A DNA stretch of 64,000 nucleotides from Lolium rigidum (lineage: Eukaryota; Streptophyta; Magnoliopsida; Poales; Poaceae): assembly GCF_022539505.1 (NCBI RefSeq), contig NC_061508.1, positions 340,207,484 through 340,271,483 of the forward strand. Direction: 5' to 3'. Each line of letters begins with the position of its first letter. Position 1 is the stretch's first letter. A model generated the notes under the pieces. It saw only the letters and a program-made list of their open reading frames with translations. It searched no databases and was not told the DNA's origin. Below are positions 8,714 through 29,480 of the stretch, piece by piece. A program made the position numbers and the translations under genes.

Positions 8714-8718
8714 CGCAC
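8714..8718. repeat. target-site duplication (CGCAC), left
   Basis: CGCAC occurs immediately before the element end at 8719 and again at 29481-29485 immediately after the other end. A perfect 5-bp duplication is typical of gypsy integration and ties the two distant LTR ends to one insertion. Confidence 0.92.
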
Positions 8719-8834
8719 TGATACGCGTGAAGCACACGTCCGTTGGGAACCCCAAGTGGAAGGTATGATGCGTATAGAAGCAAGTTTCCCTCAGTATGAA
8801 ACCAAGGTTATCGAACCAGTAGGAGCCAAGAAGC
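8719..8834 (-). repeat. 3' LTR of the Athila-type element, outer fragment
   Basis: This 116-bp fragment starts TGATACGCGTGAAGCACACG and matches 27901-28016 of the intact LTR almost base for base. It stops abruptly at AAGAAGC, where the nested element begins. The rest of the LTR resumes at 22938. Confidence 0.95.
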
Positions 8835-10003
8835 TGTTATCACCAGATTTTGGCCAAATCAGGAGATGGGCCGTAAGTGAAGATGGGCTTGAAGGATACA
8901 CACGTGGAGCATCTTTGAAGCGGCCTTGCGCGAGGAATTTGGGCTTAATTGCCCGTGTATCTGTAATATTAGTAGATCGCATCTTAGTTTAGATTAAAAG
9001 ATAGAGTTTAACCCGTGCACGGTTAGGTGCACGTCCAGATTAGAAAGTCCCTTGGACTATAAATATGTATCTAGGGTTATCGGAAAAAGAGGACAATCAC
9101 GTTCACAACAAACACAAATCAGGCGCATCGCCACCCCTTATTTCGAGGGTTTCTCCCGGGTAAGCACCATGCTGCCTAGATCACATCTTGCGATCTAGGC
9201 AGCACAACGTTTATTCGTTTACATTGTGTTGCTCGTACTGAAGCGTTGTTGATGGCGAGCAGCACTATTTATCGTATATGTTTTGGGGCTTGCATAGATG
9301 CTTTTCTTACGCATATCTGCTTAGCTATGCCGTCCCTCAATATCTAGCTGCCCTTACACCTATCCAGGTGTAAGGGCATCTTGCTTGTTCGTTACTTAGT
9401 AGATCCGATCTGTTATAGTTGCTCCTTGTTCTTCAAGGATTAGTTTAATATCCGTATGGTTAGGCCTTGCAAACGGGTTGAACGATCCGGTAGTGCGTTA
9501 GGTATGGTTTGTTAGTCCTAAGAGGGATGTTCCGGGAATTAACGTAATTTTGGTTTTTAGGCCTCTTTTAGGGTTAGTTTTCCATTATCTTTCGTGCCTA
9601 TTAGGCTCAACTACGCGTAGGATGTTCCGATCATACGGTGAAAACACTAAACTGTCGTAGATTGGTTTAGCTTTGTTACGATCAAGCAGGATCCCCATGT
9701 CATTGAAAATCCAACGTGAACCATGGGGCGATCGGCTCTTTGAGCCGATCCGCAGGGCAACCTGAGAGCCGATAGGGCTCGTATTTAATGTTTACGTGTC
9801 TGCCATGCAGGGAACTAATCGAAGCAATCCAACACCTTCCTGGCCAGGTATAGGTCAGGTGGCACGCCCTTGCGGCCGCCGGGTCGTGTGCCGGAGCATT
9901 TGCGGGACGACGTCGAGGGACCAGGGCCCGCTGCCGCCTTGGAAGCCTCCCGGCTCTTCGTGTTGCTTAACCACTGCTCGCCGGTGGGTTTTGGCAGGCA
10001 ACA
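8835..10003 (+). repeat. 5' LTR of the inverted element
   Basis: Begins TGTTATCACCAG and ends in AACA at about 10003, giving TGTT/AACA ends. The right boundary is inferred from the primer site, because the other LTR copies are truncated at the equivalent of 9717. A TATA-like sequence (ACTATAAATATG, about 9056-9067) precedes a leader that contains a hairpin of CTGCCTAGATC against GATCTAGGCAG. A hairpin of CTGCCCTTACACC against GGTGTAAGGGC follows further on. Length is about 1.17 kb. Confidence 0.85.
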
Positions 10004-10008
10004 CATTC

Positions 10009-10026
10009 TGGCATGCCCGGTGGGAC
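10009..10026 (+). other. primer binding site of the inverted element
   Basis: TGGCATGCCCGGTGGGAC lies 5 nt after the inferred LTR end and just ahead of gag. It has the TGG start expected for a tRNA primer complement. It is absent from the right arm, which ends inside gag. Confidence 0.65.
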
Positions 10027-10048
10027 ATCGGGACAATCTTCCGCAGCA

Positions 10049-12259
10049 ACCATGTCGACATCTGCGTCTCAGATGGCGGAACCAGTCAAGTATGAAGATC
10101 TGCCTCCTGAGCATAAGAAGAGATATGATGAACTCAAGGCAATCTTGGAAGCCGATCTCATCGGCGCTTTTGAGAAAACCCGTTCGCACGGGATCAAGTT
10201 CAAAGGGTTCCAACCCGAAGGCGCGCTAGATGGACTAGATCTATCTCTCCCTTCGGACGAACGTACCGCAGCCCTGCGACAGGAAGTCAACTATGCCGTT
10301 GCTCACTCTCTTCATCGGCATGCTGAGAGCTTGGTGAATACTCTGGAGCGTGTCGCGCTCAATGTGGTGCAAGAAGTCACGAAGCACAAGTACTCTCCGT
10401 CAGGTCCTGCTCTAGGAACTCACCAAGGGGAGATACCGCTCTACACAAGGCCACCACTGCAACACACGTTTGCAGCTCCACAGCGAACAAGGTTCACCGG
10501 CGTACGTCGTCTACAAGGTTGGAGGTGATCCAGGCGACTACCAACTCCCGTATGATCCGCCCAAGGAAATTCCACATGGATACGTGTGCACATACGTGCC
10601 CGACCGCAATAACCGGATGACCCGGGTCACGGCGGGAAGGATCGCCACGGCGAGGAGGAGTCGCTGGAGCAGGAAGCAGTTCTGGAGCAGATGATGAGAA
10701 ACAGGCGTGGCTAACTAAATATGCCACCAATACAAGTCATGAACGATCAGCTTCTGCAGCTCCTACGGTGGATGAGATCACCGCAATCATGAGAGACCAG
10801 TTCGGCATCCTGCCGAAGAAGAGAATGATCGGCTATTCCAAGCCGTATCCCAACGACTACGACCCGATCCCACTGCCACCTAAGTATCGGCTCCCCGACT
10901 TCACCAAATTTAGTGGATCAGAAGGAACCAGCTCGATCGAGCACGTGAGCCGATACTTGGCACAGTTGGGCATGGTCTCAGCTTCATACGAGCTACGTGT
11001 GAGGCTCTTCTCGCAGTCTCTCACGGGTCCAGCCTTTGGGTGGTACACCTCGTTGCTACCAGACTCGGTTCGGACGTGGAAGCAGCTGGAAGAGCAGTTC
11101 CATGTACAATACCATTCGGAAACTACAGAAGCTAGCCTTGCCGATCCGACCCAAGTTCGGCGGAGACGAGGAGAGACGGTATCCGAGTACATCCGGAGGT
11201 TCGGGACCGTCGAGAACCGATGTTATTCGGTCCGCCTATCCGAGAAGGAAGCGATCGAGCCGGCGGTAGCGGGATTATCGGCGCCGCTCGGAGATGTGAC
11301 CTTCCGGGCGAGTACAATTCACCGGCGCACATGGTTCAGAAGTTGACGGCATATGAACAGCGCCATCCGAATTGTACCAAGACAAGTACAAGCGCGTCGC
11401 CACGATCGAGACAGACGAAGATGAAGATTCCGCAGGAGATCGGGAGGTCGGCCGTAGCTGAGTGGACTCGGGGGCAAAACCCGTGTCCTGCAAGTGGGTG
11501 AAGCAACCAGGGCTCGTGAAGGGGTTCGACTTCGATTTGAGCAAAACGGAGCAAATTTTTGATTTGCTGTCTTGAAGGAGAAACGAGTCGAAGTTACCCG
11601 AAGGCCACAAAATCCCCACGCCACAAGAGATGAACGGCAGGCCATACTGCAAATGGCATCACATGTTCACCCATACCACCAACGACTGCAAAGTCCTGCA
11701 CGGACAGATTCAGATGGCAATAGAACAAGGCCGATTACTCTTCGGTCAGTTTGCAATGAGAGTTGACACGCAGCCGTTTCCGGAAGTCAACATGGTCGAT
11801 CTCAGCCAGTGCATAGGACGCGAGCCAGGTTTCTCGTTTGATATCAATATGGCAGGGCTTGCAGATCGCCATGACGAGGATAAGCCAGAGAGCAGTCGCT
11901 CTCGCGGCAAAGATAAAAAGGAGGCCGATCCACGCGACCGGCCCCAGCATGATGACAGACGGTATTTGACTGAGGAAGAGGTGATCAGCGTGCGGTACCA
12001 ACGACCACTTTCCGCGCACCTCCTTAACAAATATGAACAGCAGTACGACCGACGTCGGCGCTACGACGTAGATGATGACAGATATCGTCGGTCTGATGCA
12101 GACAACAGGGAATACCGTCGATACGAAGGGTATGAGCGTCACGCCAGAGGGAGGTCAAGGGAGCAAGAGGACGTGGACAGGCATTGGAATTGTCCTTTCT
12201 TCAAACACCGCCGGGACTCGGGAATGAGCCGATTGCCTACAATCGAGAATTGCCCGTAA
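10049..12259 (+). pseudogene. gag of the inverted element, left arm (frameshifted)
   Basis: The N-terminal part runs from MSTSASQMAEPVKYEDLPPE through KRYDELKAILEADLIGAF and HSLHRHAESLVNTLERVAL (10013-10528). The next piece, SPAYVVYKVGGDPGDYQL, is in another frame (10470-10694). The capsid core is at 10768-11346 (FTKFSGSEGTSSIEHVSRYL, then GPAFGWYTSLLPDSVRTW). The C-terminal part at 11630-12259 has the zinc-binding pattern YCKWHHMFTHTTNDC and an Arg/Asp/Tyr-rich tail ending near CPFFKHRRDSG. At least three frameshifts separate these pieces. It would form the particle shell; with no pol in the element, other elements must supply enzymes. Confidence 0.85.
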
Positions 12260-12429
12260 TGTAGCGAAGAGGAAGGGAGCAAATGAAGTTTCAGTTTTCA
12301 AGCGTCTAGGACCTCTCCCACCTCAGAACAAACGAGCTGAGTCATCCCAAGATGAAGACTTTGAGGAGTCAGAAGAAGAAGATAGATATCACCGACCAAG
12401 GTGGTGTCCTGATGGACTCAGCCACTCCC

Positions 12430-13273
12430 AGAAGCGCAGAGTGCAACGGCTCAGAAATTTGGAAGAAGCCGAGGCGCAGTACCTGTACACGTTGAGGAAA
12501 GCACGGCCCGATCTGGCCGTGAAAATTCAGCAAACACTGGAGACAGAAGCTCGCCCACCGAAGAAAGTGTGGCGACCCAAGCAGACGAAAGCCGATGCAG
12601 GGACATCGGCTGACACAAACATGGTGTTCGTTCTCCCGTCAGAGTTTTGTGCTCCAAAAGACGAGGAAGTATCAGTGGCACAGCTTTGATTGCGGGCCAC
12701 GGCCGATTATCTTTGAGAAGCCACGAGAAAGGAGCTATAGGCATCCGAAGGCCCCGTACCCGAAGGATTATATCAACGAGCAGCCTATCGGCAAGATGCT
12801 GGTTGACACGGGAGCAGCGAGTCAACATAATTCCGTACTCCATGTTACGACGTTTGGGACGTTCTACCGAAGATCCGATCAAGACCAACGTCACGCTAAG
12901 CGATTTCAACGGCCAACCGTCAGAAGCCAAGGGTGTTCTGAACGTGGACTTAACTGTCGGCCGAAAGACCATCCCCACGTCCTTCTTCATCATCGACAGC
13001 AAGAGCACTTATGCTGTTCTGCTAGGAAGGGATTGGATCCACGCTAACTGCTGCATTCCATCCACAATGCATCAGTGCATCATACAATGGGATGGAGATG
13101 AAGTGGAGGTTGTTCATGCAGATGATTCAGTCGATATCTCTTTGGCTGCCATGAACATCTGGGAAGCAAATGACCAAGAGCCGCTCTCTGGAATCAATCT
13201 GGACGGCTGTGAGCGCATCGAAGCTACAAAAAACGGGGTGAGGCTAGTCTTCTCCACTGGCCTGACAGAGTAG
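12430..13273 (+). pseudogene. retropepsin-like C-terminal region, left arm (frameshifted)
   Basis: This continues gag toward an aspartic protease fold. The catalytic loop is KMLVDTGAA, but an extra base immediately after it shifts the frame, so the expected continuation of the loop is lost. The fold resumes in the frame at 12647-13273 with RRLGRS, NVTLSDFNGQPSEAKGVL, STYAVLLGRDWIHANCCIP and a stop after STGLTE. The right arm has the opposite defect: continuous frame, altered catalytic residue. Nothing resembling RT follows within the next 2.5 kb. Confidence 0.85.
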
Positions 13274-15097
13274 CAAGATCCAAGTCTAGGGACGTACGTG
13301 GCAAGGCCGATCCCTGCGATCGGCCCCAAAAAATAAGAAGCAAGGATCTCACTTCAAACATGCCACATTGTCGTAGCAGAGAACCAAGAAGTTGTAAACC
13401 CTCGTCAAACATTGCAATGGAAAAGGAGGCCGATTCTAGCAATTGGCCACAATTAACCTCAACCTACCTTCTGCCTGTGTTCATCGTTCATTTGGCAGGC
13501 AATGGAAAGCTGAGATATGGGTACAGCAGCTGATGGACTAGAAGAGATCGACATTGGTCCTGGGGATAAGCCATGGCCAACATTTATCAGCAAATAAGTT
13601 GGATCACCAACTGCAAGGGGAGCCGATTCTAGCAATCGGCTAAAACTATTCCCACCACCCATGTTTACTGATGTGCTATTTCGCATGGTGAGTGGTGAGA
13701 CAAGCTTGAATTGGTTGAAAAGCCGATATCTTCAATCACTTGAAGGATTCGGCTCGGGGGGCATACACACAGAGAAGGTACAAGACCATGAAGTATGTAC
13801 CCAGGGGAAGCCGATTCATGAATCGATCGGCCAATAAAAAATCGAAAACCAATAAAAAATCGAAAATACAAAAATTTTCAGCACGGCCGATGCTCGGACA
13901 TCGTCTTTAGAATTACTGAGTTTAAGCTCGCCACTTGATCGGGCCTCGGTGAAGGAGAATGACCTGAACAGGCAACGTCACGATTGGCCGAGGCTTCGGC
14001 TGCAGAGTCATCGTCAAGGATGGTGAGCCGATCTAAGCAGACAAAGCACAAGAATTGAGCCAGGAGGAGTTAGAGAGCCATTGCATGAAAAGCTTCTTGG
14101 TTCAAAGAAGGAATTTGTCTGGTCCCGCTGAGCCCTCGTGGTACATCGACTCCTTGTGCATAAGCTTTCCTATCTTGTGTTGATGGGAGTGGAGGGCTGA
14201 CCTTTTTGTGGAAGCCGATGGTGACATATCTGGCTAGTTCTACATGGTGGTGTACCCGGAGGTGTCCAAGTTGGAGCTCCGTCAGCTGGATTGCATGTCC
14301 TTGATGATATCATCTTCGGGGGAAGTCTACAAGAGCAGGATTACTGGGCTTAATAGGATAACCAAAGCCTAGAGGGGTGTTTGCCCTTCAAAGTTCACCT
14401 GGCAGCCACCTTCTTTGCTACTATTCTCGCCTTGACTGAGGCTCGGGGGGCAGCTGCCCTCGAAGATCCTTTGCTCTTGGGAGCCGATTTTGGTTAAAAT
14501 CGGCTAGCTCTGCACCACAATTGTTATAAAACGGTGGTGAACCGCCGGAGTTGGTGGGAGGAGTTTGAAGAGGGAGCCATTATCATTGAAAGGCTCCGGA
14601 CCAGCTTGTTGCTCGCAAAGAAATAGAGCATCACAAGGAAAGTTGTGGGCAAATGGTATACGTTATGCGAAGTTCTAGCTTCAGCATCAAGGTGTTCAGC
14701 AATGGTCCTGGAGTTCTCCTGAAGGCATTGACTCCGGAATTTTGGCCGTTAAAGCTAACATTAAGCTCAGGAGGTTTGGATTTCCAAGATCTGAGGTTTG
14801 CACGATTGCGATTTGGTCCTGTTCGATTGGATCTGGACTGATCTATCTTGAAATTTATCATAAGAGACCGATGCGTTGCCATCGGCTCATTGAGTGTTGA
14901 TCAGGCTAACAATCGGCAAAATCAGTTTGAGGGGACATCGGCTAAATTGACGTAAAAGGGATCGGCAAAATCAAGTCAAGGGAAATTCTTCATTGGTAGC
15001 AAGATTTCTTACACGAAGAGCTAATTGCTCTCAAAAGGAATTACTAGGGGATACATTGCCCCATCTACTACTACTAGCCCTATGCTAAAGATCCTAT
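13274..15097 (+). other. non-coding region of the inverted element rich in GCCGAT/ATCGGC
   Basis: About 1.8 kb with no conserved coding frame in the sense direction. The hexamer GCCGAT and its complement ATCGGC recur many times, often as facing pairs a few bases apart: 13431-13450, 13621-13640, 13721-13753, 13810-13830, 14481-14505, 14866-14890 and 14925-15000. Short open frames on the minus strand are conserved between arms only because the DNA is duplicated. Confidence 0.6.
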
Positions 15098-15603
15098 CTA
15101 CGGGCCGTTGCTGCCCTCATCGTCGTCGTCGCCGCTGTCGGCGCTGCTCCCGGCCGGCTCGTCGTCGCTGCTGTAGCGGCCGCCGGCAGGACCTTCATTG
15201 TCCTCGTCTTCCTCGTCAGCGTCGTCGTCGCTGTCGAAGTCGCTGAGGTTGCCCGGCCGGGGCGAGAGCGCTTGGCCGGCGGCTCGTCGGAGGAGGTGTC
15301 GTCCTCCTCCTCTTCTTCATCCTTCACCTCCTCGGAGGAGGTGAAGTCACCCCAGGAGAGGCGATCGTCCTCGCTCTCCTCCTCCGATTCTCCGGCGAGG
15401 AAGCGGAGGTCGCTCTCCCCGTCCGTCAAGGACTGGTCATCCTCGGACCAGACGGAGAAGTCGTGGCTCGACTCGTCCCCGTCGGCTATAACGCGGCGGA
15501 TGTTGGCTGCGTGGGCCTCCTGCGGATCCCACTCCGGCGTCGGCTCGCGGAAGGGGGAGGACTGGGTAGAAAGACCCGATGAGGAGGAAGAAGAAGAAGA
15601 CAT
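15098..15603 (-). pseudogene. antisense acidic ORF of the inverted element, left arm
   Basis: This ORF runs against the element, between the non-coding region and the 3' LTR. It starts at an ATG in a strong context (GCCACCATG) and encodes a Ser-rich N-terminus (SSSSSSSSGLSTQSSPF), then EPTPEWDPQEAHAANIRR and long Asp/Glu/Ser runs. A small deletion near 15268 shifts the frame; in the shifted frame the tail stays acidic (Asp/Glu/Gly/Ser-rich) to a stop at 15100-15098. A TATA-like TTTATTTAAC lies about 65 bp upstream. Antisense ORFs next to the 3' LTR are known in Tat-lineage elements. Function unknown; the composition suggests a nuclear or chromatin-binding acidic protein, which is only inference. 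Confidence 0.7.
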
Positions 15604-15871
15604 GGTGGCAGAGGAGGGCTTTTGGAGTGCTAATGCGAAGGGGATGAAGAGGAGAACTGTTCGATGCAGTTAAATAAAAGAGATGGAGATTTAATGTTCG
15701 AACAGTTTTCGAGGATGTGGTGCCAAAACTGTCAAATCGTGCAGAGAAGTTGAGAAGGCAAGGCGTCATGATGAAGAATACTGCGACGGTTCTGCTCTGC
15801 CACGACATGACCCCTCGAAGGTAAAAATAGAGTGGTTTTGAAATTATCATTCGCAAAACCAGGGGGGCGTG

Positions 15872-16276
15872 TGTTATCACCAGATTTTGGCCAAATCAGG
15901 AGATGGGCCGTAAGTGAAGATGGGCTTGAAGGATACACACGTGGAGCATCTTTGAAGCGGCCTTGCGCGAGGAATTTGGGCTTAATTGCCCGTGTATCTG
16001 TAATATTAGTAGATCGCATCTTAGTTTAGATTAAAAGATAGAGTTTAACCCGTGCACAGATGTCGGCCAAGTTAACTAGAAGCTGATTGCTCAGAAGAGA
16101 AAGAACGAAGGAAGAGCCGATTGATTAGGAATTGCCAAAACACAAGTCGTGCAGAGACGTTAAGGAGGCAAGGCGTCATGATGAAGAATACTGCGACGGT
16201 TCTGCCACGACATGACCCCTCGAAGGTAAAAACAGAGTGGTTTTGAAATTATCATTACCAAAACCAGGGGGCCATG
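15872..16276 (+). repeat. extra partial LTR plus duplicated 3' internal sequence, left arm only
   Basis: At 15872 an LTR starts (TGTTATCACCAG) after the polypurine-like CCAGGGGGG, but it runs for only about 186 bp. At about 16058 it switches to internal-type sequence. The block at about 16140-16276 then repeats 15735-15871 (GTGCAGAG ... CAAAACCAGGGGG) and a second LTR starts at 16277. The result is two polypurine tract-LTR junctions 405 bp apart. Confidence 0.88.
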
Positions 16277-17163
16277 TGTTATCACCGGATTTTGGCCAAA
16301 TCAGGAGATAGGCCGTAAGTGAAGATGGGCTTGAAAGATACACGCGTGGAGCATCTTTGAAGCGGCCTTGCGCGAAGAGTTTGGGCTTAATTGCCTATGT
16401 ATTTGTAATATAGTAGATCGTATTTTGGTTTAGATTAAAAGATAGAGTTTGACCCGTGCACGGTTAGGTGCACGCCCGAATTAGAAAGTCCCTTGGACTA
16501 TAAATATGTATCTAGGGTTATCGGAAAAAGGAGGACAATCACGTTCACAACAAACACAAATCAGGCGCATCGCCACCCCTTCTTTCGAGGGTTTCTCCGG
16601 GTAAGCACCATGCTGCCTAGATCGCATCTTGCGATCTAGGCGCGAGCAACGTTTATTCGTTTACCTTGTGTTGCTCGTCTTTGAAGCGTTGTTGATGGCG
16701 AGCATCACTATTTATCGTAGATGTTTTGGGGCTTGCATAGATGCTTTTCTTACGCATATCTGCTTAGCTATGCCGTCCCTCAATATCTAGCTGCCCTTAC
16801 ACCTATCCAGGTGTAAGGGCGGCATCTTGCTTGTTCGTTACTTAGTAGATCCGATCTGTTATAGTTGCTCCTTGTTCTTCAAGGATTAGTTTAATATCCG
16901 TATGGTTAGGCCTTGCAAACGGGTTGAACGATCCGGTAGTGCGTTAGGTATGGTTTGTTAGTCCTAAGAGGGATGTTCCGAGAATTAACTTAATGTTGGT
17001 TTTTAGGCCTCTTTTAGGGTTAGTTTTCCATTATCTTTCGTGCCTATTAGGCTCAACTACGCGTAGGATGTTCCGATCATACGGTGAAAACACTAAACTG
17101 TCGTAGATTGGTTTAACTTTGTTACGATCAAGCAGGATCCCCATGTCATTGAAAATCCAACGT
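16277..17163 (+). repeat. truncated 3' LTR, left arm
   Basis: Starts TGTTATCACCGG after CCAGGGGGCCATG and matches the 5' LTR from 8835 up to the equivalent of 9717 (AAAATCCAACGT), where it stops. About 285 bp of the LTR end are missing. It shares GGGCGGCATCTTG with the right-arm LTR, where the 5' LTR has GGGCATCTTG. Confidence 0.92.
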
Positions 17164-17177
17164 GAAAACACTAAACG
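17164..17177. other. 14-nt spacer at the inverted-repeat centre
   Basis: The spacer GAAAACACTAAACG separates the two arms, which are perfectly complementary at their inner ends (AATCCAACGT against ACGTTGGATT). GTGAAAACACTAAAC also occurs once inside each LTR about 80 bp away (17080-17098 in the left arm), so the spacer looks like a copied LTR fragment rather than random filler. Confidence 0.9.
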
Positions 17178-18058
17178 ACGTTGGATTTTCAATGACATGG
17201 GGATCCTGCTTGATCGTAACAAAGCTAAACCAATCTACGACAGTTTAGTGTTTTCACCGTATGATCGGAACATCCTACGCGTAGTTGAGCCTAATAGACA
17301 CGAAAGATAATGGAAAACTAACCCTAAAAGAGGCCTAAAAACCAACATTAAGTTAATTCCCGGAACATCCCTCTTAGGACTAACAAACCATACCTAACGC
17401 ACTACCGGATCGTTCAACCCGTTTGCAAGGCCTAATCATACGGATATTAAACTAATCCTTAAAGAACAAGGAGCAACTATAACAGATCGGATCTACTAAG
17501 TAACGAACAAGCAAGATGCCGCCCTTACACCTGGATAGGTGTAAGGGCAGCTAGATATTGAGGGACGGCATAGTAAGCAGATATGCGTAAGAAAAGCATC
17601 TATGCAAGCCCCAAAACATCTACAATAAATAGTGCTGCTCGCCATCAACAACGCTCAAGACTGGCAACACAAGGTAAACGAATAAACGTTGTGCTGCCTA
17701 GATCGCAAGATGCGATCTAGGCAGCATGGTGCTTACCCGGGAGAAACCCTCAAAAGAAGGGGTGGCGATGCGCCTGATTTGTGTTTGTTGTGAACGTGAT
17801 TGTCTTTCTTTTCCGATAACCCTAGATACATATTTATAGTCCAAGGGACTTTCTAATCTTGACGTGCACCTAACCGTGCACGGGTTAAACTCTATCTTTT
17901 ATCTAAACTAAAATGCGATTACTATATTACAGATACACGGGCAGTTAAGCCCAAATTCCTCGCGCAAGGCCGCTTCAAAGATGCTCCACGTGTGTATCCT
18001 TCAAGCCCATCTTCACTTACGGCCCATCTCCTGATTTGGCCAAAATCTTGTGATAACA
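17178..18058 (-). repeat. truncated LTR, right arm
   Basis: Reads as an LTR in reverse complement, starting on the minus strand at 18058 (TGTTATCAC) and truncated at 17178 at exactly the same LTR base as the left-arm copy. The polypurine tract (CCAGGGGGACATG on the minus strand) is at about 18059-18071. Confidence 0.92.
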
Positions 18059-18320
18059 CATGTCCCCCTGGTTTTGGTAATGATAATTTCAAAACCACTC
18101 TATTTTTACCTTCGAGGGGTCATGTCGTGGCAGAGCAGAACCGTCGCAGTATTCTTCATCATGACGCCTTGCCTTCTCTCTGCACGATTTGACAGTTTTG
18201 GCACCACATCCTCGAAAACTGTTCGAACATTAAATCTCCATCTCTTTTATTTAACTGCATCGAACAGTTCTCCTCTTCATCCCCTTCGCATTAGCACTCC
18301 AAAAGCCCTCCTCTGCCACC

Positions 18321-18805
18321 ATGTCTTCTTTTTCTTCCTCCTCATCGGGTCTTTCTACCCAGTCCTCCCCCTTCCGCGAGCCGACGCCGGAGTGGGATCC
18401 GCAGGAGGCCCACGCAGCCAACATCCGCCGCGCTATAGCCGACGGGGACGAGTCGAGCCACGACTTCTCCGTCTGGTCCGAGGATGACCAGTCCTTGACG
18501 GACGGGGAGAGCGACCTCCGCTTCCTCGCCGGAGAATCAGAGGAGGAGAGCGAGGACGATCGCCTCTCCTGGGGTGACTTGATGAAGAAGAGGAGGAGGA
18601 CGACACCTCCTCCGACGAGCCGCCGGCCAAGCGCTTCTGCCCCTGGCCGGGCAACCTCAGCGACTTCGACAGCGATGACGACACTGACGAGGAAGACGAG
18701 GACAATGAAGGTCCTGCCGGCGGCCGCTACAGCAGCGACGACGAGCCGGTCGGGAGCAGCGCCGACAGCGGCGACGACGACGACGAGGGCAGCAACGGCC
18801 CGTAG
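18321..18805 (+). pseudogene. antisense acidic ORF, right arm
   Basis: Counterpart of 15098-15603. It begins at the same GCCACCATG context with a Ser-rich start and the shared EPTPEWDPQEAHAANIRR segment, and continues to EESEDDRLSWGD. A deletion near 18585 (where the left arm has a TTCACCTCCTCCGAGG-type stretch) shifts it out of frame. The alternative frame stays acidic and ends at the stop at 18803-18805. Both arms are therefore broken, at different places. The ancestral ORF was probably intact before the inversion or in the source element. Confidence 0.72.
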
Positions 18806-20626
18806 ATAGGATCTTTAGCATAGGGCTAGTAGTAGTAGATGGGGCAATGTATCCCCTAGTAATTCCTTTTGAGAGCAATTAGCTCTTCGTGTAAGAAATC
18901 TTGCTACCAATGAAGAATTTCCCTTGACTTGATTTTGCCGATCCCTTTTACGTCAATTTAGCCGATGTCCCCTCAAACTGATTTTGCCGATTGTTAGCCT
19001 GATCAACGCTCAATGAGCCGATGGCAACGCATCGGTCTCTTATGATAAATTTCAAGATAGATCAGTCAAGATCCAATCGAACAGGACCAAATCGCAATCG
19101 TGCAAACCTCAGATCTTGGAAATCCAAACCTCCTGAGCTTAATGTTAGCTTTAACGGCCAAAATTCCGGAGTCAATGCCTTCAGGAGAACTCCAGGACCA
19201 TTGCTGAACACCTTGATGCTGAAGCTAGAACTTCTGCATAACAGATACCATTTGCCCACAACTTTCCTTGTGATGCTCTATTTCTTTGCAGCAACAAGCT
19301 GGTCCAGAGCCTTTCAATGATAATGGCTCCCTCTTCAAACTCCTCCCACCAACTCCGGCGGTTCACCACCGTTTTATAACAATTGTGGTGCGAGCTAGCC
19401 GATTTTAACCAAAATCGGCTCCCAAGAGCAAAGGATCTTCAGGGGCAGCTGCCCCCCGAGCCTCAGTCAAGGCGAGAATAGTAGCAAAGAAGGTGGCTGC
19501 CAGGTGAACTTTGAAGGGCAAACACCCCTCTAGGCTTTGGTTATCCTATTAAGCCCAGTAATCCTGCTCTTGTAGACTTCCCCCGAAGATGATATCATCA
19601 AGGACATGCAATCCAGCTGACGGAGCTCCAACTTGGACACCTCCGGGTACACCACCATGTAGAACTAGCCAGATATGTCACCATCGGCTTCCACAAAAAG
19701 GGTCAGCCCTCCACTCCCATCAACACAAGATAGGAAAGCTTATGCACAAGGAGTCGATGTACCACGAGGGCTCAGCAGGACCAGCAAATTCCTTCTTTGA
19801 ACCAAGAAGCTTTTCATGCAATGGCTCTCTAACTCCTCCTGGCTCAATTCTTGTGCTTTGCTGCTTAGATCGGCTCACCATCCTTGACGATGACTCTGCA
19901 GTCGAAGCCCTGGCCAATCGTGACGTTGCCTGTTCAGGTCATTCTCCTTCACTGAGGCCTGATCAAGTGGCAGCTTAAACTCTGTAATTCTAAAGACGAT
20001 GTCCGAGCATCGGCTGTGCTGAAAATTTTTGTATTTTCGATTTTTTATTGGTTTTCGATTTTTTATTGGCCGATCGATTCATGAATCGGCTTCCCCTGGG
20101 TACATACTTCATGGTCTTGTACCTTCTCTGTGTGTATGCCCCCCGAGCCGAATCCTTCAAGTGATTGAAGATATCGGCTTTTCAACCAATTCAAGCTTGT
20201 CTCACCACTCACCATGCGAAATAGCACATCAGTAAACATGGGTGGTGGGAATAGTTTTAGCCGATTGCTAGAATCGGCTCCCCTTGCAGTTGGTGATCCA
20301 ACTTATTTGCTGATAAATGTTGGCCATGGCTTATCCCCAGGACCAATGTCGATCTCTTCTAGTCCATCAGCTGCTGTACCCATATCTCAGCTTTCCATTT
20401 CCTGCCAAATCAACGATGAACACAGGCAGAAGGTAGGTTGAGGTTAATTGTGGCCGATTGCTAGAATCGGCCTCCTTTTCCATTGCAATGTTTGACGAGG
20501 GTTTACAACTTCTTGGTTCTCTGCTACGACAATGTGGCATGTTTGAAGTGAGATCCTTGCTTCTTATTTTTTGGGGCCGATCGCAGGGATCGGCCTTGCC
20601 ACGTACGTCCCTAGACTTGGATCTTG
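18806..20626 (-). other. non-coding region of the inverted element, right arm
   Basis: Mirror of 13274-15097, with the same recurrent GCCGAT/ATCGGC pairs (for example 19400-19420, 20080-20095 and 20262-20280). No conserved coding frame beyond those shared by duplication. Confidence 0.6.
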
Positions 20627-21457
20627 CTACTCTGTCAGGCCAGTGGATAAGACTAGCCACACCCCGTTTTTTGTAGCTTTGATGCGCTCACAGCCGTCCA
20701 GATTGATTCCAGAGAGCGGCTCTTGGTCATTTGCTTCCCAGATATTCATGGCAGCCAAAGAGATATCGACTGAATCATCTGCATGAACAACCTCCACTTC
20801 ATCTCCATCCCATTGTATGATGCACTGATGCATTGTGGATGGAATGCAGCAGTTAGCGTGGATCCAATCCCTTCCTAGCAGAACAGCATAAGTGCTCTTG
20901 CTGTCGACGATGAAGAAGGACGTGGGGATGGTCTTTCGGCCGACAGTTAAGTCCACGTTCAGAACACCCTTGGCTTCTGACGGTTGGCCGTTGAAATCGC
21001 TTAGCGTGACGTTGGTCTTGATCAGATCTTCAGTAGAACGTCCCAAACGTCGTAACATTGAGTACGGCATTATGTTGACTGCTGCTCCCGTTTCAACCAG
21101 CATCTTGCTGATAGGCTGCCCGTTGATATAACCCTGCAGGTATAGGGCCTTCAGATGCCTATAGCTCCTTTCTCGTGGCTTCTCAAAGATAACTGGCCGT
21201 GGCCCGCAATCAAACTGTGCCACTGATACTTCCTCGTCTTTTGGAGCACAAAACTCTGACGGGAGAACGAACACCATGTTTGTGTCAGCCGATGTCCCTG
21301 CATCGGCTTTCGTCTGCTTGGGTCGCCACACTTTCTTCGGTGGGCGAGCTTCGTCTCCGATGTTTGCTGAATTTTCACGGCCGGATCGGGCCGTGCTTTC
21401 CTCAACGTGTACGAGTGCTCGCGCCTCGGCTTCTTCCAAATTTCTGAGCCGTTGCAC
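20627..21457 (-). pseudogene. retropepsin-like C-terminal region, right arm, catalytic Asp replaced
   Basis: Continuous open frame of 276 codons from MQRLRNLEEAEA to a stop after STGLTE. Unlike the left arm, the loop stays in frame: KMLVETGAAVNIMPYSMLRR. However, the catalytic DTG is ETG (GAA in place of GAC), which should abolish aspartic protease activity. The rest of the fold (SDFNGQPSEAKGVLNVDLTV, YAVLLGRDWIHANCCIP) is preserved. The upstream gag part is in other frames. Confidence 0.85.
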
Positions 21458-22929
21458 TCTGCGCTTCTAGGAGTGGCTGAGTCCATCAGGACACCACCTT
21501 GGTCGGTGATATCTATCTTCTTCTTCTGACTCCTCAAAGTCTTCATCTTGGGATGACTCAGCTCGTTTGTTCTGAGGTGGGAGAGGTCCTAGACGCTTGA
21601 ACACTGAAACTTCATTTGCTCCCTTCCTCTTACGCTACATTCCGGGCAGTTCTCGATTGTAGGCAATCGGCTCATTCCCGAGTCCCGAGCGGTGTTTGAA
21701 GAAAGGACAATTCCAATGCCTGTCCACGTCCTCTTGCTCCCTTGACCTCACTCTGGCGTGACGCTCATACCCTTCGTATCGACGGTATTTCCTGTTGTCT
21801 GCATCAGACCGACGATATCTGTCATCATCTACGTCGTAGCACCGACGTCGGTCGTCATCGCTGTTCATATTTGTTAAGGAGGTGCGCGGAAAGTGGTCGT
21901 TGGTACCGCACGCTGATCACCTCTTCCTCGGTCAAATACCGTCCGTCATCATGTCGGGGCCGGTCGCGTGGATCGGCCTCCTTTTATCTTTGCCGCGAGA
22001 GCGACTGCTCTACGGCTTATCCTCGTCATGGCGATCTGCAAGCCCTGCCATATTGATATCAAACGAGAAACCTGGCTCGCGTCCTATGCACTGGCTGAGA
22101 TCGACCATGTTGACTTCCGGAAACGGCTGCGTGTCAACTCTCATGGCAAACTGACCGAAGAGTAATCGGCCTTGTTCTATTGCCATCTGAATCTGTCCGC
22201 GCAGGACTTTGCAGTCGTTGGTGGTATGGGTGAACGTGTGATGCCATTTGCAGTATGGCCTGCCGTTCATCTCTTGTGGCGTGGGGATTTTGTGGCCTTC
22301 GGGTAACTTCAGTCGTTTCTCCTTCGACAGCAAATCAAAAATTTGCTCCGTTTTGCTCAAATCGAAGTCGAACCCCTTCACAGGCCCTGGTTGCTTCACC
22401 CACTTGCAGGACACGGGTTTTGGCCCCCGAGTCCACTCAGCTACAGCGACCTCCTGATCTCCTTCAGAATCTTCATCTTCGTCTGTCTCGATCAGGGCGA
22501 CACGCTTGTACTTGTCTTGGAACAATTCTGGATGGCGCTGTTCATATGCTGTCAACTTTTGAACCATGTGCGCCAGTGAATTGTACTCTGCCTGGAAGGT
22601 CACATCTCTGAGCGGCGCTGATAATCCTCGCTACCGCCAGCCTCGACCGATTCCTTCTCGGATAGGCGAACCGAATAACATCGGTTCCTGACGGTCCTGA
22701 ACCTCTAGATGTACTCAGATACCGTCTCTCCTCGTCTCTGCCGAACTTGGGTCAGATCGGCAAGGCTAGCTTCCGTAGTTTCCGAATGGTATTGTACATG
22801 GAACTGCTCTTCCAGCTGCTTCCACGTTCGAACCGAGTCTGGTAGCAACGAGGTGTACCACCCAAAGGCCGGACCCGTGAAAGACTGCGAGAAGAGCCTC
22901 ACACGTAGCTCGTCTGAAGCTGAGACCAT
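21458..22929 (-). pseudogene. gag, right arm, truncated at the capsid core
   Basis: The open piece at 22010-22603 has AEYNSLAHMVQKLTAYEQRHPELFQ, the zinc-binding YCKWHHTFTHTTNDC and VNMVDLSQCIGREPGFSFDI. The piece at 22705-22929 holds the capsid core (GPAFGWYTSLLPDSVRTW, then RRGETVSEYI). The Arg/Asp-rich tail at 21635-21868 is in another frame. The gene stops at the right-arm breakpoint, so the N-terminal third, the start codon and the primer site are absent. Confidence 0.85.
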
Positions 22930-22937
22930 AACCCACA

Positions 22938-24405
22938 CACGTGAAGGTTGTTGGTGGAGGAGTGTAGTGCGGCGCAACACCAATGAAACCGGCGCCAACG
23001 TGGAACCTGCACAACACAATCAAAGTACTTTGCCCCAACGTAACAGTGAGGTTGTCAATCTCACCGGCTTGCTGAAAACAAAGGATTAAACGTATCGAGT
23101 GGAAGATGGTGTTTGTTTGCAAAGAACAAGTAAAAGCAAGTAGAATGTATTCAGATGTAAAAGAATGGACCGGGGTCCACAGTTCACTAGTGGTGTCTCT
23201 CCAATAAGATAACTAACATGCTTTGGGTGAACAATATACGAGCGAGCAATTGACAAATAAAGATTCAATACATATCAACGATGATTACTATGTGATTTAA
23301 TCGGTGCATTACGACAAAGTACATAGACCGCTATCCGGCATGCATCTATGCCTAAATAATCCACCTTCGGGTTATCATCCGAACCCCTTCCGGTATTAAG
23401 TTGCGAACAACGAGATAATTGCATTAAGTATGGTGCGTAATGTAATCAACACAAATATCCTTAGACAAAGCATCAATGTTTTATCCCTAGTAGCAACAAC
23501 ACATCCACAACCTTAGAACTTTACATCACGTATCCCAGATTTAATGGAGGCATGAACCCACTATCGAGCATAATTACTCCCTCTTGGAGTTACAAGTATC
23601 AACTTGGCCGAGCCTCTACTAGCAACGGAGAGCATGCAAGAACATAAACAACACATATATGATAGATTGATAATCAACTTAACATAGTATTCTCTATTCA
23701 TCGGATCTCACCAAACACAACATGTAGCATTACAAATAGATGATCTTGATCATGTTAGGCAGCTCACAAGATCTATAACAATGAAAGCACAAGCGGAGAA
23801 GACAACCATCTAGCTACTGCTATGGACCCATAGTCCAAGGATGAACTACTCACGCATCAATCCGGAGGCGGGCATGATGATGTAGAGCCCCTCCGGTGAT
23901 GATTCCCCTCTCCGGCGGGGTGCCGGAGGCGATCTCCTGAATCCCCCGAGATGGGATTGGCGGCGGCGGCCTCTCAGTAATGTTTTCCGTATCGTGGCTC
24001 TCGGTACGGGGGTTTCGCGACGGAGGCTTTAAGTAGGCGGAAGGGTAGGTCAAAGGGCGTCACGAGGCGCCGACACCACAGGGCCGCGCGGCCAGGGCCC
24101 GGGCCGCGCCGCCTCGGTGTCCGGCCACCTCGTGGCCCCACTTCGTCTCCTCTTCGGACTTACGGAAGCTTCGTGCAAAAATAGGCCCACGGGCGTTGAT
24201 TTCGTCCAATTCGAGAATATTTCCTTACTAGGATTTCTGAAACCAAAAACAGCGAGAAAAACAACAAGCGGCACTTCGGCATCTTGTTAATAGGTTAGTG
24301 CCGGAAAATGTAAAATAATGTTGTAAAATATGTGTAAAACACTCAAGTATTGTAATAAAAGTAGCATGGAACATAAGAAATTATAGATACGTTTGCGACG
24401 TATCA
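22938..24405 (-). repeat. 3' LTR of the Athila-type element, inner fragment
   Basis: Continues the LTR broken at 8834 and matches 28016-29480. It ends ACGTATCA at 24405. The two fragments total about 1584 bp against 1580 bp for the intact 5' LTR, so essentially no LTR sequence was lost at the insertion. The two LTRs differ by scattered substitutions and 1-2 bp indels. Confidence 0.95.
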
Positions 24406-27066
24406 AGCATCCCCAAGCTTAGTTCCTACTCGTCCTCGAGTAGGTAAACGATAACAAAAATAATTTACGAAGTGACATGCTACCAACATAATCTTGATCA
24501 ACATTATTGTAAAGCATATGAGATGAATGGAATGATCTGAACAAAAGATTGCTAACAAAGATAATGACTAAGCAAATGAATCATATAGCAAAACTTTTCA
24601 TGAATAATACTTTCAAGACAAGTATCAATAAGAGTTGCATAAGAGCTAACTCATAAGCAATAAATTCAAAGTAGAATGCATTGAAGCAACACAAAGGATG
24701 ATTAAGTTTCAGCAATTGCTTTCAACTTGTAACATGTATATCTCATGGATATTTGTCAACATAGAGTAATATAACGGGTGCAGTAAGTAAACATGTAAGA
24801 ATCAATGCACACAGTTAACACAAGTGTTTGCTTCTAAGATAGAAAGAAGTGGGTAAGCTGACTCAACAATAAAGTAAAAGATTGGCCCTTCGCGAGAGGA
24901 AGCATTGATTACTATTTTTGTGCTAGAGCTTTTGTTTTGAAAACATAGAAACAATTTTGTCAATGGTAGTAATAATTCATATGTGCTATGCATAATACTT
25001 CCTACAAGTTGCATGTCTCATGCATAGAGTACCAATAGTGCTCGCACCTTGTCCTACTATCTCGGAAACACGGATTCTCATCGCATAACATATGCTTCAA
25101 CCAAGTGTCACAAAGGGGTACCTCTATGCCGCCTGTACAAGTGTCTAAGGAGAAAGCACGCATTGGATTTCTCGCTTTTGATTATTCTCAACTTAGACAT
25201 CCATACCGGGACAACATAGACAACAGATAGTGGACTCCTCTTTTTCATGCTTAAGCATTCAACAATAGTTAATATTCTCATAAGAGATTGAGGTTGTATG
25301 TCCAAACTGAAACTTCCACCATGATACATGGCTTTAGTTAGCGGCCCAATGTTCTTCTCTAACATATGCATACTCAAACTATTTGATCATGAAGTCCACT
25401 ACTTCAGACAAGACGAACATGCATAGCATCTCACATGATATCCAACAAAGGTAAAGTTGATGGCGTCCCCAGAAAACATGGTTACCGCTCAACAAGCAAC
25501 TTATACGAATTAAGACACATAACTACATATTCATTACCACACTAGTTTTTAAGCTATTTGTCCCATGAGCTATATATTGTAAAGGTAGAGGAATGAAATT
25601 TAAAGGTATCACTCAAGTAATTTACTTTGGAATGGCAGAAAAATACCACATAGTAGGTAGATATGGTGGACACAAATGGCATGGAGTTTGGCTCAAGGTG
25701 TTTGGATGCACGAGAAGTATTTCCTCTCAGTACAAGGTTTGGGCTAGCAAGGTTGTTTGAAGCAAACACAAGTATGAACAGGTACAGCCAAAACTCACAC
25801 AAGAACATATTGCAAGCATTATAAGGCTCTACACTTGTCTTCCTTGTTGTTCAAACACTTTACCCGAAAATATCTAGACTTAGAGAGATCAATCATGCAA
25901 ACCAAATTAAATAAGCTCTACAGTAGTTCTTCATTAATAGATTAAACTACATGATGCAAGAGCTTAAACATGATCTATGAGAGCTCAAACAATTGCCAAA
26001 TTTACCAAACCATATGTAGCATTTTCCAATTCCAACCAAATAGCAATCTAACGAAGCAATGAGCTTTCGCCATGAACATTAAAGCACAATTAAGAACACA
26101 AGTGTTCCATAAGAAAAAGCGGAGCGTAATATCTCCAATATAAGAATGGCGAGATCCAACTTTATTCAAAACAAAACAAAAATAAAAACAAACCGACGCT
26201 CCAAGTAAAGAACATAAGAATGTGATGGAATAAAAATATAGTTTCACTAGAAGTGACCTGATAATGTTGTCGATGAAGAAGGGGATGCCTTGGGCATCCC
26301 CAAGCTTAGATGCTTGAGTCATCTTAAAATATTCAGGGATGAACCACCGGGGCATCCCCAAGCTTAGACCTTTCACTCTTCTTGATCATAGTATATCATC
26401 CTCTTCTCTTGACCCTTGAAAACTTCCTTCACACAAACTTCAAGCAAACTCATGAGAGGGTTAGTGCATAACCACAAATTCACATATTCAGAGGTTACAC
26501 AATCATTCTTAACACTTCTGGACATTGCACAAAGCTTCTGAAATTTAATGGAACAAAGAAACTCATTTAACATAGCAAAAGCGGCAATGCGAAATAAAAG
26601 ACAGAATCTGTCAAAAACAGAATAGTCCGTAAAGATGCATCTGGACTGGGCACTTAACTTGCTCAAATGGAAAAACTCAAAACTAATGAAAGTTGCGTAC
26701 ATATCTGAGGATCACGCTCGTAAATTTGCAGATTTTTTCGAATTTTTTTCAGAGACTTATGCCAGAATTCGTGACAGAACAGCAATGCTGTTTACGCGCA
26801 GCGATCCCAAATATAACATCAACTTTAACATAGAAACTTTACTTGGCACAAAAACATGATAAGGAGAGGTTGCTACAGTAGTAAACAACTTCCAAGACTC
26901 AACAAAACAAAAATTGCTGTAGTAAAATAAACACATGGGTTATCTCCCAAGAAGTGCTTTTCTTTAACGCCTTTCAGCTAGGCGCAGAAAGTGCAAATCA
27001 AGTAACATCAAGAGAAGAAGCATCAACATTATTACCTTGGGAGTTGGGAGTTTTCTCAACAATGCA
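24406..27066 (-). other. internal non-coding region of the Athila-type element with three polypurine-like copies
   Basis: AT-rich, no conserved coding frame. The 16-mer GCATCCCCAAGCTTAG occurs next to the 3' LTR (24407-24422), where on the minus strand (CTAAGCTTGGGGATGC) it is the polypurine tract, and twice more inside the element (26294-26309 and 26352-26367). Nothing resembling pol is present. Confidence 0.7.
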
Positions 27067-27645
27067 TTATATCTGGTCTATATAAGTAACTCCTCTCTCA
27101 TTGCTCCTAGGCTTACTATTCTCATCAAACAAATTTTCAGGAACAAGCCAAGCATAGTTATTTTCCAAAGCTTCATGCATCCCTAGGAGCTTACTAGGTA
27201 TTGGCGCTTTAATTTCCCTACCATCATTAACATTATTAGTATACTTAATTCTATCCATATCCATCTTTTCAAGTATTTGTTTAAAATTAGGAAAGAAACC
27301 AAGCCTCTTATGCTTAATAAAAACTTTTCTAGCTTCTTTAACTATATCCTCAAGTTCTCTAACAAGGACTTTTAAAACAAAATTTCTCTTTTCTCCCATC
27401 TCCATATCCGAAAGTGTAAGAAACATATGTTGTATTATGGGATTGAGATTAACAAATCTAGTTTCCAACATGTGTATTAAACAAGCAGAAGCACTTTCAT
27501 AAGTAGGAGCAATTTTTAATAATGGTATATCTTCAAAATCTTCATCCATGCTAACATGGGTGAAAAATTCTTCTATATTATCTCTTCCAATGATACACCC
27601 TCGTCCTACCGGTATCTTTTCCAAAGTAAACTTAGGATTAAGCAT
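27067..27645 (-). CDS. ORF of the Athila-type element, unrecognised
   Basis: About 192 codons if started at the ATG at 27645 (MLNPKFTLEKIPVGRGCI); an upstream ATG would add a hydrophobic stretch that I consider untranslated leader. It lies about 230 bp inside the primer site, the position of gag. The sequence is charged and partly helical (NFVLKVLVRELEDIVKEARK, FIKHKRLGFFPNFKQILEKM) and has no zinc knuckle or protease motif. It is open to its stop with no frameshift, the only intact ORF of this element. It may be a remnant gag N-terminus or a product specific to the non-autonomous family; I do not recognise a domain. Confidence 0.55.
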   Translation of the reverse strand: MLNPKFTLEKIPVGRGCIIGRDNIEEFFTHVSMDEDFEDIPLLKIAPTYESASACLIHMLETRFVNLNPIIQHMFLTLSDMEMGEKRNFVLKVLVRELEDIVKEARKVFIKHKRLGFFPNFKQILEKMDMDRIKYTNNVNDGREIKAPIPSKLLGMHEALENNYAWLVPENLFDENSKPRSNERGVTYIDQI

Positions 27646-27873: not shown

Positions 27874-27889
27874 CTCGGCAACGGCGCCA
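27874..27889 (-). other. primer binding site of the Athila-type element
   Basis: Reads TGGCGCCGTTGCCGAG on the minus strand, 11 nt inside the LTR end. This is the well-known Athila-type primer site; TGGCGCCGTTGCCGGGG is the common form. Confidence 0.9.
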
Positions 27890-27900: not shown

Positions 27901-29480
27901 TGATACGCGTGAAGCACACGTCCGTTGGGAACCCCAAGTGGAAGGTATGATGCGTATAGAAGCAAGTTTTCCTCAGTATGAAACCAAGGTTATCGAACCA
28001 GTAGGAGCCAAGAAGCACGTGAAGGTTGTTGGTGGAGGAGTGTAGTGCGGCGCAACACCAGTGAAACCGGCGCCAACGTGGAACCTGCACAACACAATCA
28101 AAGTACTTTGCCCCAACGTAACAGTGAGGTTGTCAATCTCACCGGCTTGTTAAAAATAAAGGATTAAACCTATCGAGTGGAAAATGGTGTTTGTTTGCAA
28201 AGAACAGTAAAACAGTAGAATGTATTCAGATGTAAAAGAATGGACCGGGGTCCACAGTTCACTAGTGGTGTCTCTCCAATAAGATAACTAACATGCTGGG
28301 TGAACAAATTACAGGCGAGCAATTGACAAATAAAGATTCAATACATATCAACGATGATTACTATGTGATTTAATCCGGGCATTACGACAAAGTACATAGA
28401 CCGCTATCCAGCATGCATCTATGCCTAAATAATCCACCTTCGGAGTTATCATCCGAACCCCTTCCGGTATTAAGTTGCGAACAACGAGATAATTGCATTA
28501 AGTATGGTGCGTAATATAATCAACACAAATATCCTTAGACAAAGCATCAATGTTTTATCCCTAGTAGCAACAGCACATCCACAACCTTAGAACTTTCTGT
28601 CACTGTCCCAGATTTAATGGAGGCATGAACCCACTATCGAGCATAATTACTCCCTCTTGGAGTTACAAGTATCAACTTGGCCGGAGCCTCTACTAGCAAC
28701 GGAGAGCATGCAAGAACATAAACAACACATATATGATAGATTGATAATCAACTTAACATAGTATTCTCTATTCATCGGATCTCACCAAACACAACATGTA
28801 GCATTACAAATAGATGATCTTGATCATGTTAGGCAGCTCACAAGATCTATAACAATGAAAGCACAAGCGGAGAAGACAACCATCTAGCTACTGCTATGGA
28901 CCCATAGTCCAAGGATGAACTACTCACGCATCAATCCGGAGGCGGGCATGATGATGTAGAGCCCCTCCGGTGATGATTCCCCTCTCCGGCGAGGGTGCGG
29001 GAGGCGATCTCCTCAATCCCCGAGATGGGATTCGCGGCGGCGGCCTCTCGGTAATGTTTTCCGTATCGTGGCTCTCGGTACGGGGGTTTTCGCGACGGAG
29101 GCTTTAAGTAGGCGGAAGGGTAGGTCAAGGGGCGTCACGAGGCGCCGACACCACGAGGCCGCGCGGCCGGGGCTGGGCCGCGCCGCCCTGGTGTCCGGCC
29201 ACCTCGTGGCCCCACTTCGTCTCCTCTTCGGACTTACGGAAGCTTCGTGCAAAAATAGGACCACGGGCGTTGATTTCGTCCAATTCGAGAATATTTCCTT
29301 ACTAGGATTTACGAAACCAAAAACAGCGGAAAAACAACAAGCGGCACTTCGGCATCTTGTTAATAGGTTAGTGCTCAGGAAAATGTAAAATAACGCTGTA
29401 AAGTATGTGTAAAACACTCAAGTATTGTAATAAAAGTAGCATGGAACATAAGAAATTATAGATACGTTTGCGACGTATCA
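27901..29480 (-). repeat. intact 5' LTR of the Athila-type element
   Basis: 1580 bp with terminal inverted repeat TGATACG/CGTATCA, followed by the TSD CGCAC. The minus-strand start TGATACGTCGCAAACG resembles a large group of Triticeae gypsy LTRs that begin TGATACGTC. Confidence 0.95.

Follow-up and report, generated by a model that had tools for sequence, protein, structure and literature searches.

A mirror-image LTR-retrotransposon composite nested in the LTR of an older element in Lolium rigidum

How can one family of LTR retrotransposons come to form a giant inverted repeat whose two arms lie tail to tail? The question is raised by a region of Lolium rigidum contig NC_061508.1, of which we analysed a stretch of 64,000 nucleotides (positions 340,207,484 to 340,271,483; here called the window). 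Self-BLAST paired 10972-16057 with 22929-17876 at 96.7% over 5099 columns and matched 16133-18203 to its own reverse complement at 94.0%; the mirror therefore spans 10972-22929 about 17163|17178. The inverted repeat reported in a preliminary description of this DNA was thus confirmed in the given sequence by self-BLAST and arm alignment. The extent given there holds for the mirror, but the structure as a whole is larger, a single 14.1-kb composite insertion (8835-22937) of a putatively gypsy-type element, element A, nested in the 5′ LTR of a second element, element B (Table 1). Both outer limits of the mirror (10972 and 22929) lie in gag, the flanks belonging to element B are unmirrored, and the leftmost 2137 bp of the composite (8835-10971) have no mirror partner.

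Table 1. Features of the composite insertion and its host element, in window coordinates.
Feature	Position	Strand	Content and basis
5′ LTR of host element B, left part	8719..8834	.	99.1% match to 27901-28016 (self-BLAST)
5′ LTR of element A, sole full LTR	8835..10005	+	start TGTTATCACC exact; end placed by ...CA and PBS-like sequence
Leader and first part of gag, left side only	10006..10971	+	self-BLAST; tblastn of Lolium proteins
Left arm, donor H1	10972..16057	+	gag, protease, non-coding DNA, antisense ORF, PPT-like tract, LTR bases 1-186
Antisense ORF	15097..15669	-	191 codons stop to stop; right-arm counterpart 18255-18809 (+)
Extra block, donor H2	16058..16461	+	404 bp; diverged pre-PPT stretch, PPT-like tract, LTR bases 1-186
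Remainder of left central LTR	16462..17163	+	to shared stop ...CCAACGT; self-BLAST, alignments
Centre spacer	17164..17177	.	GAAAACACTAAACG; 13/14 nt also at 17086-17098
Right arm, donor H3	17178..22929	-	truncated LTR back to mid gag, inverted
Right-junction filler	22930..22938	.	AACCCACAC, ~9 nt; final C may be the target's
5′ LTR of host element B, right part	22939..24405	.	self-BLAST, printed flanks
3′ LTR of element B	27901..29480	.	carries empty site 28016|28017; then target duplication CGCAC 29481-29485

Element B is older than the composite and extends over 8719-29480, with the target duplication CGCAC at both of its ends (8714-8718 and 29481-29485). Its 3′ LTR serves as the empty site, and in comparison with it the right flank of the composite restarts at the same target base at which the left flank stops, so that both outer junctions coincide with one point and no target base is lost. 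The left boundary is the exact LTR start at 8835, whereas the right boundary is broken inside gag. Neither of the two marks of an ordinary LTR-retrotransposon insertion was found. A 5-bp target duplication is lacking, with GAAGC on the left and CACAC followed by ACGTG on the right, and in place of two complete LTRs, one per end, the left end of the composite has the only full LTR, the centre two truncated copies and the right end none. Because a second full LTR is absent, the end of the 5′ LTR of element A at 10005 is provisional.

The arms are not composed of the same pieces. The 405-bp block mentioned in the preliminary description is indeed present in one arm only, and it is better defined as a second, diverged pre-3′-LTR stretch followed by LTR bases 1-186. 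The corresponding H1 piece (15872-16057) is identical to the 5′ LTR (8835-9020) at 186 of 186 sites, whereas the H2 copy differs from it at 13 of 185 sites, all of them transitions; the left part thus resembles fresh, normal cDNA and H2 another subfamily. Donor H2 is therefore distinct from H1, and H3 was probably a molecule separate from H1. Beyond LTR base 186, private changes number 7 in the 5′ LTR, 10 in the left central copy and 12 in the right one. Such a star would also be expected from copies identical at birth.

At the centre, both LTR copies end in ...CCAACGT at 5′-LTR base 9717, in agreement within 0-3 nt, and the earlier observation that they break at one internal base was borne out by the alignment. 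The GAA that follows in the left copy also fits the LTR, but it is common to the templated spacer. This spacer is a copy of LTR sequence 78 bp upstream with GTGAA shared, and a match of 13 nt was reached in 1 of 5000 shuffles. In a collection of viral contigs, which is not the relevant one for this family, the centre junction had 0 matches. For the right-junction filler only short, chance-level matches were obtained as a source.

Over their whole length the arms differ by 139 substitutions at 5739 aligned sites and by 33 gap openings, among which are gaps of 405 and 22 columns. Raw K2P is lower between the arms (0.0247) than between the LTRs of element B (0.0306); dating by raw substitutions was set aside because swapped bases were found around CG. 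When differences were counted after masking of CG-linked sites, the arm interior had 5/1770, as compared with 11/600 in the LTR parts of the arms (p = 3e-4), 14/1319 in gag (p = 0.009) and 20/984 in the LTRs of element B (p = 7e-6). Divergence along the arms is uneven both at non-CG sites (p = 0.006) and, across four regions, at masked sites (p = 0.0006), and uniform ageing of one folded-back molecule is therefore not our first choice. Rate variation may also be responsible, since at non-CG sites the LTRs of element B too diverge unevenly from one end to the other (p = 0.02), and gene conversion between the arms could be an alternative cause of the patchiness. CG decay is unequal as well, with 43 sites in the right arm versus 16 in the left (p = 6e-4), and both different donors and consensus error are compatible with this.

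We attach roughly even probability to the explanation that one LTR end was integrated, while broken copies of the family served to patch the other by templated end joining, in the manner of T-DNA inverted dimers. Element A would have entered the 5′ LTR of element B with normal joining at its left LTR end only, and the broken right end would have reached the target by end joining and template switching through other family copies, most likely cDNAs present in the cell. The probable order of events begins with a break in H1 at LTR base 186 and its linkage to H2; the end near LTR base 883 would next have been connected tail to tail with an inverted H3 through the short stretch copied from 78 bp away, and H3, broken in gag, with the target through the filler of about 9 nt, presumably along a polymerase-theta-like path. 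An origin at the time of integration fits best because the left limit coincides with the exact start of an LTR and the right limit with the base at which the target resumes. The suggestion made earlier, that the structure formed during or after reverse transcription, is retained in this form; the narrower idea of one cDNA simply folding back is a poorer fit, because the left part joins two donors and masked divergence is patchy. The raw K2P values, being lower for the arms than for the LTRs of element B, are still compatible with fold-back, as for arms identical at birth. The shared LTR stop counts against free end joining, which leaves it unexplained: with an LTR of about 1175 bp, two independent breaks would agree in this way in about 0.6% of cases. 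The right filler, having no traced source, is a further point against the end-joining explanation.

The shared stop would be accounted for if one break had given both ends, as in a chromosomal repair after normal insertion of element A, with a break in the 3′ LTR repaired by inverted copying, either of the sister chromatid or of related copies elsewhere, after which the right flank received the new end. Yeast breaks are known to acquire fold-back and templated inverted insertions, of 2 to about 150 bp in the accessible part of one study (PMC11724301), and the lower raw K2P of the arms is what arms younger than element B require. We nevertheless consider such a repair rather unlikely, since the right joint lies exactly at the original target point, where what remained of the 3′ LTR and the duplication are missing but no further target base is, since the flank left of element A is outside the mirror, which stops in gag at 10972/22929, and since H2 demands a second donor. 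It is improbable that the inverted repeat arose as such in reverse transcription, in one cDNA that folded back or switched template and was then integrated. In favour of this view, the two central LTR copies share a stop, the composite as a whole has limits like those of one insertion, and the raw divergences taken alone fit arms identical at birth. Against it, ordinary reverse transcription uses one template for both LTRs, and the 13 H2 differences of the left central LTR are absent from the 5′ LTR; the patchiness of masked divergence also speaks against a single molecule. An RNA 3′ end was considered as the cause of the shared LTR stop and would predict a poly(A)/T run, but at the centre junction no T run marking a poly(A) tail was found.

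Slightly more improbable still is an assembly error, either by misjoining or inversion of copies of an abundant family or by a read-level hairpin kept as sequence. Signs of consensus error do occur: adjacent difference pairs in the arms number 21 against 2.7 expected, 12 of them being base swaps and some adjoining gaps, and 8 small indels lie in the left arm at 11258-11587, 7 of them opposite an open reading frame in the right arm. The scattered substitutions, which had been taken to mean that the arms are not one sequence assembled twice, are therefore weak proof, because many resemble CpG consensus errors. That conclusion is better upheld by the indels of 405, 22 and 6 bp separating the arms and by the nested flanks, with element B and its perfect target duplication enclosing the structure and both junctions at one empty-site point; a read-level hairpin would, moreover, not leave H2 confined to a single arm. 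Grass genomes commonly contain nested insertions, and relatives of the family are numerous (the gag piece has 836 homologous proteins, 120 of them listed), yet two independent insertions in opposite orientation followed by several deletions are highly improbable, as the preliminary description had argued. This would take two deletions that converge on a single LTR base, the loss of all second LTR ends and target duplications, and a further deletion whose end falls exactly on the point of the first insertion.

The end-joining explanation takes its model from T-DNA inverted dimers in plants, for which the accessible part of one report (PMC8395108) gives filler and microhomology at the joints and theta-mediated end joining. 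Judged by its sequence, the composite appears to fit such a dimer, with one precise end, the others truncated, and mirror-image copies with filler or microhomology; polymerase theta is predicted here by analogy. Unlike those dimers, as far as that part of the report describes them, the composite has a retrotransposon donor and an LTR start as its precise end, and it cost the target no base. In yeast, according to the available portion of a second study (PMC10802722), Ty1 cDNA fragments are captured at double-strand breaks, and some inserts consist of several fragments joined. Retrotransposon fragments were thus likewise added by end joining, sometimes in several pieces, but at an induced break, whereas the composite has kilobase pieces, an inverted one among them, and one exact LTR start. 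The fold-back inversions in the excerpt of PMC11724301 share with it an inverted copy by the joint, short microhomology and an end-joined other end; they are 2 to about 150 bp long, in contrast to an inverted copy of 5.75 kb whose donor was seemingly another family copy. A sister-chromatid-fusion palindrome was rejected, as the arms do not run into duplicated flanks, and so was a fold-back or TIR DNA transposon, the 2137 bp at 8835-10971 being unmirrored and a target duplication missing. In the titles and abstract openings listed, most subscription journals being outside the search, no description of a tail-to-tail LTR-retrotransposon composite was found.

The inverted repeat seems to be the outcome of known processes gone wrong in an unusual way, and not a new kind of element. 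It is a tentative and on balance doubtful proposal that plant LTR-retrotransposon cDNAs are integrated at a steady rate in a T-DNA-like manner, one end by integrase and the other patched with inverted co-existing cDNAs by theta-type end joining. If true, LTR-pair annotation would be missing a class of insertions that are one-ended, mirror-image and free of target duplication, and these would be ready-made sources of hairpin RNA against their own family. Should such composites be common in large grass genomes, they would supply inverted repeats, hairpin RNAs and structural variation from a source that has been overlooked. The window holds its own controls, namely an empty target (the 3′ LTR of element B), a full reference LTR of element A and a second LTR pair for dating, and the locus can therefore show step by step how retrotransposon integration goes wrong.

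The assignment of element A to the gypsy type is provisional and is based on gag, protease and leader only; it was filed as non-autonomous. Pfam matches were PF03732 (gag) on 10624-11343 (E=1.1e-13) and PF13975 (aspartic protease) on 20630-21466 of the minus strand (E=1.2e-10), and among the 8 open reading frames of element A compared with Pfam, out of 82 listed, none matched reverse transcriptase, RNase H or integrase. No open reading frame longer than 106 aa was present in 13273-15024 of the left arm, and the longest in its right-arm counterpart has 138 aa. An Rfam search gave 0 matches at the gathering score, and in viral contigs the gag piece had no confirmed relatives. With its TG-start LTR, PF03732, PF13975, PPT-like tract and antisense ORF, element A resembles non-autonomous gypsy-type LTR elements of grasses; unlike these, the locus has an inverted extra arm and neither a second LTR end nor a target duplication. 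The gag piece is 91% identical to a Lolium multiflorum protein, and the antisense ORF has 53 homologous proteins.

Comparison of the whole window with itself bore out the large inverted repeat of the preliminary description, since 10972-16057 matches 22929-17876 in inverted orientation at 96.7% and 16133-18203 matches its own inverse at 94.0%, both far above chance level. Both arms derive from a gypsy-type LTR element (element A) and form part of a composite insertion in the 5′ LTR of an older element (element B). Pfam searches identified Retrotrans_gag (PF03732, E=1.1e-13) and gag-asp protease (PF13975, E=1.2e-10), and neither reverse transcriptase nor integrase was found among the 8 of 82 ORFs listed for the composite that were searched. 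The left-arm region 13273-15024 contains no ORF longer than 106 aa, and the longest ORF of its right-arm counterpart is 138 aa. A search with the gag piece yielded 836 homologous proteins; among the 120 matches listed, the best identity was 91%, to Lolium multiflorum, which is the sole organism name. For the antisense ORF there are 53 homologues, and the organism names shown are all Lolium. These matches place the window in ryegrass or a near relative. This ORF matches ryegrass gene models named, for example, 'histone chaperone ASF1-like' and 'coatomer subunit beta'-2-like', and these host-gene names suggest that transposon ORFs were annotated as host genes. Eight small indels also cluster at 11258-11587 in the left-arm gag, seven of them single-nucleotide and the other of 2 nt. 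The right arm has an open reading frame (22630-22010) opposite seven of the eight, and the cluster reflects either advanced decay or a patch left unpolished.

Coordinates of the composite insertion, its host element and other repeats
Feature	Position (strand)	Description
Element B	8719-29480	bordered by CGCAC at both ends
5′ LTR of B	8719-8834 and 22939-24405	split in two
Internal region of B	24406-27900	
3′ LTR of B	27901-29480	whole
Composite insertion	8835-22937	14,103 bp
5′ LTR of A	8835-10005 (putative end)	
Retrotrans_gag	10624-11343	
Left arm	10972-17163 (+)	second half of gag, aspartic-protease region, non-coding DNA, antisense ORF, truncated LTR
Antisense ORF	15094-15669 (-); 18255-18809 (+)	
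H2 block	16058-16461	404 bp
Centre spacer	17164-17177	
Right arm	17178-22929 (-)	content as left arm
gag-asp protease	20630-21466 (-)	
Direct repeats	30156-31224; 35767-36633	96.8-97.6% alike
Second inverted pair	38194-39122; 47854-48822	73.6% alike
DUF1618 ORF	45949-47301	
91-bp tandem repeat	55963-56365	4.4 copies, 98% alike
Minisatellite array	58086-58842	units 22, 31, 53 bp

Since B's 3′ LTR is intact, it displays the empty target site, AAGAAGC followed at the insertion point by ACGTGAAGG. The left flank of the composite closes with GAAGC and the right flank opens with ACGTG; no target bases were lost, a 5-bp duplication is absent, and at most one base (C at 22938) could be shared. The left boundary is the exact LTR start of A (TGTTATCACC), and at the right boundary A starts inverted in mid gag after 8-9 nt of filler, for which a source was looked for and none identified. 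Two ORFs of B's internal region gave no Pfam matches, so this large LTR element may lack coding capacity.

Within the composite, the left arm's 3′ LTR extends to LTR base 186 (16057), and 15872-16057 is identical to the 5′ LTR at 186/186 sites. With identical LTR pieces at both ends, the left part as far as 16057 behaves like normal, fresh cDNA. The block that follows, from a donor termed H2, is a diverged repeat of the pre-LTR stretch and LTR 1-186, with 13 differences from the 5′ LTR in 185 sites, all transitions, and would belong to another subfamily. None of these 13 differences occurs in the 5′ LTR, so H2 did not template it and probably joined after the left end was complete. The inverted arm, from a putative separate donor, is near the left part in the interior and less near in LTR and gag. 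At the centre the sequence is CCAACGT-GAAAACACTAAACG-ACGTTGG; 13 of the 14 spacer bases are also present in the LTR 78 bp upstream (17086), with entry via a common GTGAA, a match reached in 1 of 5000 shuffles of the spacer. Both LTR copies end at the same base, as had been proposed, to within 3 nt; if an LTR of ~1175 bp broke twice independently, the calculated chance of this is ~0.6%.

Raw K2P distances (arms 0.0247, B's LTRs 0.0306), taken alone, are compatible with arms that started out identical and aged after B's insertion. However, 10972-16057 contains 21 pairs of adjacent differences vs 2.7 expected, 12 of them swaps and a few next to gaps. Fourteen such pairs in the arms (10972-22929) have NCG on one side and CTG on the other, or the complement; four cases of this kind lie between B's LTRs (22938-24411 vs 28016-29486) and none between the central LTR copies. 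We suspect consensus errors at methylated CpG, likelier than mutation, which would skew ages estimated from LTRs in this assembly. Nanopore base calling is documented to be poor at methylated Dcm sites (excerpts of PMC6591954); no description of the NCG/CTG form was found in the literature searched. Columns ≤2 from a CG and ≤3 from a gap were therefore masked. The arm interior then differs at 5/1770 sites (non-coding 4/1398, antisense ORF to PPT 1/372), lower than B's LTRs (20/984, p = 7e-6), the arm LTR parts (11/600, p = 3e-4; LTR 1-186 4/127, central LTR 7/473) and gag-protease (14/1319, p = 0.009). The composite is thus younger than B, and its arms are patchy in divergence. Against this, B's LTRs are also uneven at non-CG sites (p = 0.02), and the three LTR copies past base 186 are star-like, with 7, 10 and 12 private changes. 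The masked 5′ LTR differs from the right arm at 16/608 and from the left central LTR at 6/472 sites.

The H2 evidence, exact LTR start, untouched target, missing duplication and templated spacer make one-ended integration the simplest history, at roughly even odds in our judgement: one LTR end of A would have integrated into B's 5′ LTR, and the other would have been patched by template-switching end joining that drew on broken copies of the family. Free end joining leaves the shared LTR stop unexplained, and gene conversion between the arms may also underlie the patchy divergence. Chromosomal repair drawing on related copies accounts for most features but leaves unexplained why the right joint falls precisely where A had inserted, and we consider it possible though doubtful. 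An assembly error is improbable, given that a single element B, complete with target duplication, encloses the whole structure.

The nearest precedent for a patched one-ended insertion is plant T-DNA, for which the available portion of one account describes head-to-head dimers, filler, microhomology and template switching by polymerase theta, and T-circles whose right borders are precise and whose left borders carry deletions (PMC8395108). Breaks in yeast capture fragments of Ty1 cDNA, with a hotspot in the 3′ LTR region; among about 33,000 insertions captured there, nearly 4,000 combine two to four fragments, mostly mitochondrial (excerpts of PMC10802722). An encounter between cDNAs of one family is not far-fetched given the abundance of LTR elements in ryegrass, a perennial ryegrass assembly being reported to hold 42,085 full-length elements, with Gypsy at 72% of detected transposons (PMC9281035, in part). 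A hypothetical transcript across the centre would form a hairpin with arms of ~5.7 kb that might feed small RNAs; we claim no function for it.

Elsewhere in the window, an older inverted pair with ~1 kb arms 8.7 kb apart surrounds the DUF1618 ORF. Between the direct repeats of 30156-36633 lies an ORF on the minus strand that encodes a GAG-pre-integrase domain, and the whole is probably a truncated copia-type element. The GC-rich minisatellite array has long overlapping ORFs on both strands that are probably not genes, and the 91-bp tandem unit carries a short inverted repeat, TTTAGTCCCGGTT...CCGGGACTAAA.
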